Virus record (IMG/VR): IMGVR_UViG_3300006916_000242 | Span: 1-29,884 of that record | DNA from: a virus | Reading direction: 5' to 3' (one strand) | Length of the DNA stretch: 29,884 nucleotides | Part shown: piece after piece, positions 24,340-28,864 of the stretch | Numbering within the stretch: the stretch's first letter is position 1 | How the letters are laid out: every line of letters starts with the position of its first letter | Made by a program: the position numbers and the translations under genes | Notes under the pieces: generated by a model | The model's input: only the letters and a program-made list of their open reading frames with translations | The model's database searches: none | What the model was told of the DNA's origin: nothing

Positions 24340-25724
24340 GCCACTTCCTCCGATTTAATCCATGCCGGGAATGCTAGATCAAGCGGTCTGTTGTAAACCG
24401 TCCTGACCTTACCGCCGTTCTGCGCCTTCATCATCGCTTCCGACATACGGCGCTTCATTTCGTCGTGCTTTTTGCCCTTGACGTTGATTGCCTGCCAAAT
24501 GGCGTTTTCCGTGTCTGCAATCACGATATCGTTGCGAACCCTCTCCGTCTGGCCAAAACGATGTGACCTTCGAACAGCCTGATAGTGCTGTTCATACGAA
24601 AACGAGATTGATGCGAATACGGCATGGGCGCAATGCTGCCAGTTAACGCCAAACCCCGCCAATTTAGGCTTTGTGACAATAGCGCGGAAATCACCATCAG
24701 CAAAACCCAGCAGCCGCCGCTCTTTTTCCTCCGGCGTCATATCGCCCCGAACCTCAACAGCGCCTTCAACCATCTTGGCCAGCATCGCGCTTTCTTCGTT
24801 GCTCTCGCACCACACAGTCACGGGATTGTCATGGTTTGCCAATTGCGCAGCCATTTCGCATCGGTCTTGCGCTGTCAAACGCTTCTCTTTGTGAAAGCTT
24901 GTCGCGCTCATTTCGGGAATGCGAAAAAGCATTCCTTGGTCAACATCCTGTTGCCGATCAGCCTCGACGACATGAATGCGCCGTTCAATCTCTGGCAGGA
25001 TATATCCGGTATCGTCACCACCGAGATCGGATGGCAAAGTTGCGCAACGCGACCACGACGCGACCCATTGCCAGAAATCCTCGACAGCGTGGCCCTTTAG
25101 CCGCCACTCTTGGGATGCTGTTGATGTATCGTTGATGAACCATTGAGACAGCATTTCCTGCTGACGCATGACACCAAGAAACTCAGCATGGTTTCCAAGT
25201 TCCATGTGATCGTTTGGTGACGGCGTTGCTGTTGCCGCCAGCTTAAACCGGCAGTCAGAAAATGCTGCCATAAGACGATTGCGGGTTTGCCCTGCAAATG
25301 ATTTGAGAATGCTGCTTTCATCAAGCACCACGCCACCAAACGCGCTCGGGTCCAGCTTAGAAATCCGCTCATAGTTTGCCACCATGATGCCTTCGCCAAC
25401 ATCTTCTGCTTCCTTGACCTGGCGCGCGTCAATCCCGAATTTTTGCCCTTCGCGGATCATCTGACCAGCAACTGCAAGAGGGGTCAAAATCAAAACAGGC
25501 TTGCGTGTTTCTTCTGAAACTTGTCTTGCCCATTCCAGCTCGGACAAAGATTTGCCCAACCCAGTATCTAGGAACAGCGCCGCCGAACCGCGAGACAAAG
25601 CAAAATCCACAGAAACTATCTGATGCTTCTTCATGGCATCATTCATCGCCTTTGGGTCAAAACCGTTCATCTGCGCGGCAACGGCCCGAGCCGCTATGAA
25701 TTCTCTGTACGCTTCCAATCCCAT
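24336..25724 (-). CDS. SF2 (SNF2-like) helicase
   Basis: The protein is 462 residues. Walker A DTGLGKS is at 53-59, the DExx box LDES at 134-137, motif III ATATPSPND at 164-172, and motif VI RRSHRFGQ at 385-392. The RxxRxGQ arginine finger is as in SNF2-type enzymes. A further conserved stretch AIVTKPKLAGFGVNWQHCAH precedes motif VI. Such phage helicases work in replication fork or recombination intermediate handling. ATG at 25724 has a perfect AGGAGG 4 bases upstream, better than the ATG at 25763. The gene is paired with the methyltransferase. Its ribosome site matches the loop of the candidate RNA at 26249. Confidence 0.9.
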   Translation of the reverse strand: MGLEAYREFIAARAVAAQMNGFDPKAMNDAMKKHQIVSVDFALSRGSAALFLDTGLGKSLSELEWARQVSEETRKPVLILTPLAVAGQMIREGQKFGIDARQVKEAEDVGEGIMVANYERISKLDPSAFGGVVLDESSILKSFAGQTRNRLMAAFSDCRFKLAATATPSPNDHMELGNHAEFLGVMRQQEMLSQWFINDTSTASQEWRLKGHAVEDFWQWVASWSRCATLPSDLGGDDTGYILPEIERRIHVVEADRQQDVDQGMLFRIPEMSATSFHKEKRLTAQDRCEMAAQLANHDNPVTVWCESNEESAMLAKMVEGAVEVRGDMTPEEKERRLLGFADGDFRAIVTKPKLAGFGVNWQHCAHAVFASISFSYEQHYQAVRRSHRFGQTERVRNDIVIADTENAIWQAINVKGKKHDEMKRRMSEAMMKAQNGGKVRTVYNRPLDLAFPAWIKSEEVA

Positions 25725-25826
25725 ATTTCCTCCTAACCGCAAGTTGTGGCGCTGGCCGGACATTGAACGGGTCTATCCGGCTTTTCAAAACACTTGCGCT
25801 GTTGCAATTGGCCCCGCAGCGTCCAC

Positions 25827-25835
25827 TTATCCACA
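25827..25835 (+). other. Perfect DnaA box (TTATCCACA)
   Basis: The nine bases match the DnaA box consensus TTATNCACA exactly. Next to it, on the right, is an AT-rich run. It is the only perfect copy I found in the window, and it lies in the non-coding region ahead of the replication genes. One box alone could arise by chance, but the adjacent module encodes a DnaA domain IV. Confidence 0.6.
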
Positions 25836-26072
25836 TTCCTACCTTTGCGAGAATATGTCTAATCACGTTTTTTGTTTCACTTTCATTCACTTAGGCATAG
25901 TTCCGCTTTCCGCTCAGGCTGACCCTGTAAGGATCAAAGCGGCCTGCCTGCCCACATGCTTTGTATCGACGCGCTACCCGTTTCACTGGTGGGTCAGTCC
26001 ATTGACCGCGACAATGAGAGATTGCCGCCACTCGTCAGCCTATATGCGCGCTTCTGTCTGGGAACGTAGGCG

Positions 26073-26177
26073 TTACACCAGATCGGCCCGGAAATCCTTT
26101 AGCGCCCCGTAGGTCGCACAGGCAAAGAGGCCCAAAGCATCTGGATTATTCGGGAAATCCAGCAAATCCGCACCCAT
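26073..26177 (-). CDS. Possible 34-residue peptide
   Basis: The frame reads MGADLLDFPNNPDALGLFAC, then ATYGALKDFRADLV. The composition looks protein-like (acidic, helical) and third-position bases are moderately GC-rich, but there is no ribosome site ahead of the ATG. A TTG 6 codons upstream would extend it to 40 residues. Low confidence; it may be a chance frame in a regulatory region. Confidence 0.25.
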   Translation of the reverse strand: MGADLLDFPNNPDALGLFACATYGALKDFRADLV

Positions 26178-26213
26178 TTTATTAAAAACGGTCAAAAATC
26201 AGCAGGGATTTTC

Positions 26214-26242
26214 TTGAAGCTCGCCCGCGTCTGCGGTATATC
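26214..26242 (+). promoter_or_regulatory. Promoter for rightward small RNA
   Basis: TTGAAG and TATATC (each 4 of 6 to consensus) are separated by exactly 17 bases on the plus strand. The start point predicted 7 bases after the -10 element is 26249, which is the first base of the first hairpin. The direction opposes all neighbouring genes. Confidence 0.5.
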
Positions 26243-26248
26243 TTCGTC

Positions 26249-26330
26249 GTGACGCGCTGAAACCCTGCGAAAGTTTCGCGTCACCAGGCGGCGTTGACCC
26301 TTCCTCCGGGTCCGCCGCCGCTTTCTTTCT
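26249..26330 (+). ncRNA. Candidate ~80-nt antisense-oriented small RNA
   Basis: Two hairpins follow the promoter. The first pairs GTGACGCG (26249-26256) with CGCGTCAC (26277-26284) and extends inside with AAAC/GTTT (26260-26263 / 26273-26276). The second, 2 bases later, is a 12-bp stem with a TT bulge and the loop TTCCTCC, ending in a U-rich tail. No reading frame of note lies within it. The loop is complementary to GGAGGAA, the exact ribosome site core of the SF2 helicase gene (25724) and of the erf gene (28502). Position and orientation recall the lambda OOP RNA, which is transcribed against the early operon beside the replication genes. Expression is not proven. Confidence 0.5.
26287..26330 (+). 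terminator. Intrinsic-type terminator, plus strand
   Basis: The stem is GGCGGCG-TT-GACCC paired with GGGTC-CGCCGCC, with loop TTCCTCC, followed on the plus strand by GCTTTCTTTCT. On the minus strand no U-tract follows. The tail is interrupted by Cs, so efficiency is uncertain, but the stem is very stable. Confidence 0.6.
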
Positions 26331-26364
26331 ATCAAAGCACAGCACCACTTTTCAAGCTATGCTT

Positions 26365-26394
26365 TTTGCAAATGTGTAAAGTCATGTTTGCAAA
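26365..26394. promoter_or_regulatory. Paired TTTGCAAA palindromes
   Basis: The palindrome TTTGCAAA occurs at 26365-26372 and 26387-26394, starts 22 bases apart, about two helical turns. The second copy lies across the end of the HNH nuclease gene. Spacing by full turns suggests a protein binding site, perhaps for one of the phage HTH proteins, but no promoter of good quality overlaps. Confidence 0.35.
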
Positions 26395-28502: not shown

Positions 28503-28864
28503 TCTCTTTCCTCCTTCGGTTTAATGTGAACCAGAACCGCGCCGCCTTTGACCGGCTCGGAAAACTGGCTTGGGAAAACGCAACGGAACCCGTGGTCATC
28601 GCAGCCCATTGCATCGGCTATCCCGTCAATCGCGGCTTTCAGCATGTGCGGCATGTTCTGCGCGTCACGCCTGCGCCGATCCGGCGGGGCATAGGTAAAA
28701 TCCAAAACCGCACCCGGCATAGGCGGCACCCCATGGTGCTGACACATAGCCCAAGCCTCGCGGCGATACGCCTTTGTAGCCCGTGACCGGCTGGACCAAT
28801 GGCCCCGCGCGTTGCTGCTTAAATCGCGGCTAGGCCACGACAGGCGGATAAGGTACTCCTTCAC
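28499..28864 (-). CDS. rusA: RusA-family Holliday junction resolvase
   Basis: The protein is 121 residues. The active region PPDRRRRDAQNMPHMLKAAI and DGIADAMGCDDHGF (residues 60-93) matches RusA, with D67, N70, D80 and D89/D90 at the acidic metal-binding positions (RusA pattern DxDN...K...D...DD). RusA is a dimer that cuts four-way junctions symmetrically; E. coli RusA is 120 residues, the same length. It is coupled to the HTH gene and to erf by ATGA overlaps. The family call is secure. Confidence 0.88.
   Translation of the reverse strand: MKEYLIRLSWPSRDLSSNARGHWSSRSRATKAYRREAWAMCQHHGVPPMPGAVLDFTYAPPDRRRRDAQNMPHMLKAAIDGIADAMGCDDHGFRCVFPSQFSEPVKGGAVLVHIKPKEERE

Follow-up and report, generated by a model that had tools for sequence, protein, structure and literature searches.

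What does a phage encode in the only long gene-free gap of its early region, and on what would the product act? The window, the whole stretch analysed here, comprises 29,884 bases of a virus record from a marine bacterial virus and carries phage genes. These include structural and packaging genes (terminase, portal, major head protein) and leftward early genes (primosomal-type protein, DNA methyltransferase, SF2 helicase, HNH, NinB, exonuclease-family protein, Erf and RusA). Positions 25725–26381 hold no genes, and the genes on both flanks run leftward. This agrees with the preliminary description, which had placed a short rightward RNA gene in this gap, pointing against the early operon. The parts of the short RNA gene are as follows.

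26213–26242, + strand: promoter CTTGAAG-N17-TATATC, with TTG and TA invariant in 33 homologues
26249–26284, + strand: hairpin 1, which starts at the predicted start point; 9 of 9 pairs with double-sided changes
26287–26331, + strand: hairpin 2 and U-rich tail, an intrinsic terminator; GGCGGCG/CGCCGCC paired in 100% of cells, inner stem covarying

By direct reading, the promoter hexamers were TTGAAG (26214–26219) and TATATC (26237–26242), separated by a 17 nt spacer. Read as CTTGAA-N17-GTATAT, the site matched the alphaproteobacterial sigma70 consensus, CTTGAC-N17-CTATAT (PMC2873474), at 5/6 and 5/6 positions. The best promoter score was 9.65, compared with 7.79 (sd 1.0) in shuffles, and a generic E. 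coli-type promoter scan missed the site at 26213–26242. Hairpin 2 itself covered 26287–26319, with the loop TTCCTCC at 26301–26307, and was followed by GCTTTCTTTCT. The RNA would end at about 26331, leaving a gap of about 50 nt to the nearest gene, HNH, which ends at 26382. The segment 26244–26331 folded at −37.0 kcal/mol, compared with −25.4 ± 3.0 for shuffles (z −3.9; 0 of 200 shuffles as stable); folded separately, hairpin 2 had a z of −4.8 and hairpin 1 a z of −2.7.

Relatives were collected by several routes. A search with the helicase gene led to 54 loci, and the hairpin core led to a further contig, L002, with a different gene order. Searches with a 16-mer from the left end of the conserved region described below, a mid-element motif and the terminator core brought the collection to approximately 35 members. 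Most helicase loci lacked the element, so the element moves independently of the helicase gene. A covariance model (R1) recovered 34 of the 34 alpha-group loci given to it, most of these sequences being part of its training set. On the R1 alignment of the 34 loci, six helices were paired in 91.8% of cells and showed double-sided changes in 29 of 36 pairs; these counts lean toward the modelled helices, most of which were in R1 or came from its consensus, while the U–L helix introduced below was not in the model. The covariation score was 0.607, compared with 0.182 ± 0.012 after shuffling (0 of 500 shuffles reached 0.607), and slid versions of the helices scored at most 0.121. The only invariant columns in 33 aligned members were the TTG, the TA of the −10 hexamer and positions of hairpin 2.

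The strand on which hairpin 1 folds could be read from its mismatches. It contained 23 G-U but 4 A-C cells (p 0.0003; 12 versus 2 distinct events); since G-U was tolerated and A-C hardly, hairpin 1 folds as a rightward (+ strand) RNA. The locus had what is expected of a sigma70-dependent, intrinsically terminated small RNA gene, namely a conserved promoter, a structured body and a terminator with a U tract. Comparison among relatives shows a host-type sigma70 promoter predicted to drive a rightward RNA of about 80–90 nt, in which a covarying hairpin precedes an intrinsic terminator; we are close to certain that this putative gene is real and conserved. The promoter, the two hairpins and the U-rich end lay where the preliminary description had put them and were confirmed by stem-preserving changes in the 34 loci. 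That description had named stems without compensating changes in related phages as grounds for abandoning the RNA; in the relatives, such changes kept the stems, and the proposal of a short rightward RNA was borne out, as were its promoter, its two hairpins and its terminator.

The function first proposed for the RNA fared less well. The suggestion was an OOP-like antisense RNA, an anti-Shine-Dalgarno RNA, or both, which would block ribosome binding to the helicase and erf messages. The loop TTCCTCC is indeed the exact complement of GGAGGAA before the genes at 25724 and 28502, and the RNA opposes the operon in the window. The match alone is weak, as TTCCTCC occurred 7 times in the window where 3.1 ± 1.9 were expected; GGAGGAA also preceded gene 24339, making three genes complementary to the loop, and occurred at three other places. 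Among the 34 members, the TTCCTCC loop was confined to 2, the window and its closest relative, L002; the remaining 32 had other loops, which argues against an anti-Shine-Dalgarno loop. The likeness to OOP was not sustained either: the short RNA has no overlap with any gene, and four relatives (L062, L071, L072 and L118) have an upstream gene of the same orientation. Nor was a likeness to the CcsR/cuckoo RNAs, since the match to RF02791, at 18.8 bits, fell short of the gathering score of 65.3 and the CCUCC loop was not conserved. An RNA of the OOP type, of the anti-Shine-Dalgarno type or of both is extremely improbable here. As an observation on the operon itself, the strong ribosome site core GGAGGAA was common to three early genes (24345–24351, 25727–25733 and 28508–28514).

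The conserved stretch in L002, L004 and L005 extended over about 450 bp, not 85. The short RNA gene is very probably part of a larger element, a non-coding stretch of about 440 bp at 25896–26331 of which it forms only the 3' part. The site originally given, 26214–26330, was real, but the feature reaches left to about 25896. Its 5' part, module A, contained the following features.

25896–26199, listed on the + strand: module A, a conserved 5' module of about 300 bp, aligned in 19 class I relatives, with covarying helices
25899–25914, + strand: the 16-mer AGTTCCGCTTTCCGCT, which marks the left end of the element in class I and is nearly invariant there
25903–25942, + strand: helix P1, pairing 25903–25908 with 25937–25942 around a small hairpin; 95.6% of cells paired
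25915–25918 with 25947–25950, + strand: pseudoknot-type helix, CAGG with CCTG; 93.4% of cells paired, 2 of 4 pairs changing on both sides

In the alignment of the 19 relatives, the mean column identity of module A was 67%. Its 40 pairs were paired in 93.0% of cells, and 22 of them showed double-sided changes. The covariation score was 0.339, compared with 0.126 ± 0.011 after shuffling, the helices having been picked on the same alignment, so that the count is not independent. The structure comprised P1, the pseudoknot-type helix and seven further helices. The pairs of P1 were mostly invariant while the hairpin enclosed by it covaried, and the pseudoknot-type helix took other forms in other members (CGGG/CCCG, AGGG/CCCT, ATGG/CCAG). 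In single-sequence RNA folding of module A (17 results), z was approximately 0 on either strand, no more stable than shuffles, and most module A helices showed no clear strand preference. No conserved sigma70 promoter was found at the left end of module A; scores there were no higher than in shuffles, and a promoter of its own was rejected.

In other members, the 3' part was kept while the class of module A differed. The comparison among relatives shows an upstream module of about 300 bp that is of swappable class and has covarying helices of its own. The divergent copy in L061 carried an HNH gene (L061:6715-7737) between its first 33 nt and its promoter and hairpins, and a module A of another class, as in Sulfitobacter phage phiGT1, L177 and L179, and yet kept the promoter, the U–L pair and the hairpins. 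A conserved 3' part with differing 5' classes, together with the pseudoknot-type helices of module A, would suit one long structured RNA of about 440 nt in which an internal promoter gives a second, short form. GOLLD RNA offers a comparison, being phage-encoded with a conserved 3' region, a less conserved 5' region and pseudoknots (PMC12286853). But the GOLLD and ROOL covariance models, run on 20 element-sized loci, matched none of them even at E 10, module A folded no better than shuffles and its left end had no promoter, which makes the long RNA a clearly improbable account of the whole.

The element came up repeatedly, with exchanged 5' modules, in phage contigs from the environment; where a record was scanned from end to end with the model or the 16-mer, a single copy was found. 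The sole relative in isolate phage collections was in the cultured phage phiGT1 (34445–34903; 81.5% identity over 97% of the L179 query). BLASTN searches of isolate phages with the copies from the window and L072, and of plasmids with the copy from the window, gave nothing; other classes led to phiGT1. There, the copy sits in a stretch without annotated features, and the words noncoding, intergenic, promoter and terminator were all absent from the main phiGT1 paper. A search of 385 alphaproteobacterial genomes with R1 returned nothing, although it used a strict filter and had no positive control, so it is not evidence of absence. In Rfam 15 there was no gathering-level match over the element, the only matches in relatives being int-alpA and tRNA elsewhere; 20 element-sized loci gave no consistent match to known Rfam families, and no tRNA or tmRNA lay over the element. 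No description of the element was found in the literature. With its shapes kept by matched mutations in more than thirty related viruses, it is a real and apparently undescribed non-coding locus of (mostly) alphaproteobacterial phages. Structured RNAs of alphaproteobacterial marine phages have been little explored, and this element was missed by both Rfam and the phiGT1 annotation.

Several related sequences were noted along the way. The 16-mer was also present in other phage groups and in two Bradyrhizobium genomes, and opened other structured-looking stretches (L077:1493-2100, L080:1560-2160; Bradyrhizobium). The same start was seen in the L088/L090/L092/L102/L105/L108 group and in L060, L065, L067 and L107. 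These stretches often had a CGGAAAGTCC-like box; in most of the phage ones, a TTG-17-TAT promoter and a terminator hairpin came next. Together with the element, the 16-mer stretches probably constitute a wider family. Some genomic 16-mer matches (L111, L112, L114) were discarded as chance coding matches. In L156 (7731–7813, + strand), a terminator very similar to hairpin 2 followed a hairpin (GCGCCAAG..TTGGCG) and a promoter-like stretch that both differ from those of the element, with a model score of 41 bits. L146, L068 and L178 had a long inverted repeat with a T run (GCGCCGCG...CGCGGCGCTTTTTT) upstream of the element, overlapping a leftward TTGACA-17-GATAGT promoter-like site about 60 nt to its left.

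The gene neighbourhood was inspected as well. The right-hand neighbour of the element was often a nuclease gene whose family was read from the sequence: RusA-like (L169, L002, L059, L157, L158), VRR-NUC-like (L005, L075, L139, L141, and annotated so in phiGT1) or HNH. A role as the leader of the left-hand gene was rejected, the identity and direction of that gene varying among relatives. The replication and recombination genes around the element (helicase, methyltransferase, HNH, NinB, Erf, RusA), and the frequency of junction-resolvase-like or other nuclease genes (RusA, VRR-NUC-like, HNH) to its right, would fit a replication origin or single-strand initiation site, with repeats folding as DNA and the short RNA serving as a primer or regulator. 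Such genes are common in early operons, however, and a GC-skew turn at the element was absent in nine phages; an origin is very improbable.

On what, then, would the short RNA act? Three further features surround its start.

26202–26211, + strand: segment U (GCAGGGATTT), upstream of the promoter and complementary to the hairpin-1 loop segment L
26263–26268, + strand: loop segment L (CCCTGC), the partner of U, in the loop of hairpin 1
26216–26245, no strand assigned: symmetric palindrome GAAG-N5-CCGC-N4-GCGG-N5-CTTC, on the promoter and centred on the −35/−10 spacer

The consensus of U, which lies upstream of the −35 hexamer and outside the short transcript, was GGnnGGTTC, and that of L was GAACCnnCC. 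The letters differed by phage: GCAGGG/CCCTGC in the window, GTGGGAA/TTCCCAC in L073, GCAGGTTG/CAACCTGC in L005, GACAGGTTA/TAACCTGTC in L059 and GAACGGTTC/GAACCGTTC in L158. Complementarity was nevertheless present in all alpha-group members tested. Double-sided changes occurred in 8 of the 9 U–L pairs and 82.6% of cells were paired, with one or two central positions unpaired in many members. The palindrome, of the general form GNAA-N5-CCGC-N4-GCGG-N5-TTNC, consisted of two helices with 93.4% and 95.5% of cells paired and double-sided changes in 7 of 8 pairs, its arms covarying while TTG and TA stayed fixed. Among the phages examined, a search for other targets of L gave no further conserved one, and a 14-nt match of the loop in one phage, antisense to a coding region, was judged to be chance.

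We favour the explanation that L and U evolve jointly because of an RNA–RNA contact, in cis or in trans; its regulatory role is inferred. U would be part of any transcript that runs in from module A but absent from the short RNA. In the long form, U would pair with L in cis, competing with the upper part of hairpin 1, and the short RNA would present L, through which it would act, to U in trans. The short RNA would then most likely control the long RNA, or early or replication-region processes that use it, by a phage-specific RNA–RNA contact. This is our preferred explanation of the whole locus, with a likelihood just short of even; the U–L mechanism taken by itself is held with low confidence and is rather doubtful. 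The position of L in the hairpin-1 loop, the covariation of module A and the retention of promoter, U–L pair and hairpins in the divergent L061 count in its favour. Against it count the lack of both a promoter and excess stability in module A, the unpaired central U–L positions and the lack of a second target of L. The neutral strand bias of U–L, the palindrome and most module A helices, unlike that of hairpin 1, is also odd if they fold in a + strand RNA.

For the U–L, flank and spacer helices, the strand test gave 32 G-U versus 22 A-C cells (approximately 12 versus 13 distinct events), without a clear preference. U–L and the palindrome may function at the DNA level, or in transcripts of both strands. 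If they are DNA sites, U, L and the palindrome would be operators for a phage regulator whose specificity differs by phage, or a cruciform-forming promoter, with the short RNA as the regulated product; the two arms of an inverted repeat would change together since a single dimeric protein, or extrusion of the DNA, requires both. Repeats without an excess of G-U over A-C, a palindrome whose two sides match (N5 each) and whose centre falls on the −35/−10 spacer, and a module A without excess RNA stability are all consistent with this. But in every member L coincides with the apical loop of an RNA hairpin, a placement unnecessary for DNA binding. The repeat sequences vary in nearly every phage, so that each would need its own specificity, and the centres of U–L and the palindrome differ (26235 versus 26230.5 in the window). 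Such operators or a cruciform are unlikely, yet close behind the RNA–RNA contact because the strand test was neutral for exactly these repeats.

A broader reading is a fainter prospect still: the loop of the short RNA would match a segment of a longer RNA of the same sense (or DNA) just outside its own transcript, and so form a phage-specific self-recognition code with interchangeable upstream modules. If so, the code would control early expression, replication or a co-infecting relative. Should U and L make functional contact in trans, related phages would have a code for recognising one another's RNA. The locus has strong covariation and a clearly defined promoter, and a sharp experimental prediction follows from its loop, whose changes are matched by those of a partner that the short transcript does not contain. 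To our knowledge, control by loop–partner RNA recognition is known from plasmids and hardly known in phages.

The short RNA would work in the manner of other small terminated phage RNAs and, as regards its loop–partner code, of plasmid copy-control RNAs. The latter (ColE1 RNA I/II, IncB/I-alpha Inc RNA) are short terminated RNAs whose loop pairs with a segment of the same locus. As in these, loop and same-locus partner change together here. Unlike these, the short RNA has the same sense as its partner segment, rather than being antisense, and controls no rep gene as far as is known. Lambda OOP RNA, about 77 nt long, is likewise a short phage RNA with its own promoter and terminator hairpin beside replication genes, and the short RNA resembles it, in the window, also in opposing the operon. 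OOP shares 52 bases with the 3' end of cII (PMC5869508), in contrast to the RNA described here, which has no gene overlap, a covarying first hairpin whose loop is phage-specific and a varying orientation to the upstream gene. CcsR1/cuckoo RNA (RF02791) shares two hairpins, a terminator and, in this one phage, CCUCC in a loop, but differs by its sub-threshold score and by the restriction of that loop to the window and L002. GOLLD and ROOL resemble the element in being phage-encoded with a conserved 3' and a variable 5' region; the element is shorter, matches neither family, has a predicted internal promoter for a separate short RNA and lies in loci nearly all of which lack tRNA genes. The int-alpA RNA (RF02996) is also a phage-associated structured RNA of alphaproteobacteria and occupies the same gene gap in four relatives (L005:4749-4817, +; L061:6586-6650, −; L073:10611-10676, −; L075:5924-5986, +), with no match at the corresponding place in the window. 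It is a separate element, located about 65–150 nt to the left on the opposite strand, so that one gene gap holds two structured RNAs. We rate the element as neither a lambda-OOP-like nor a ribosome-site-blocking RNA, but as a structured phage RNA locus with an unusual loop–partner arrangement across its own promoter.
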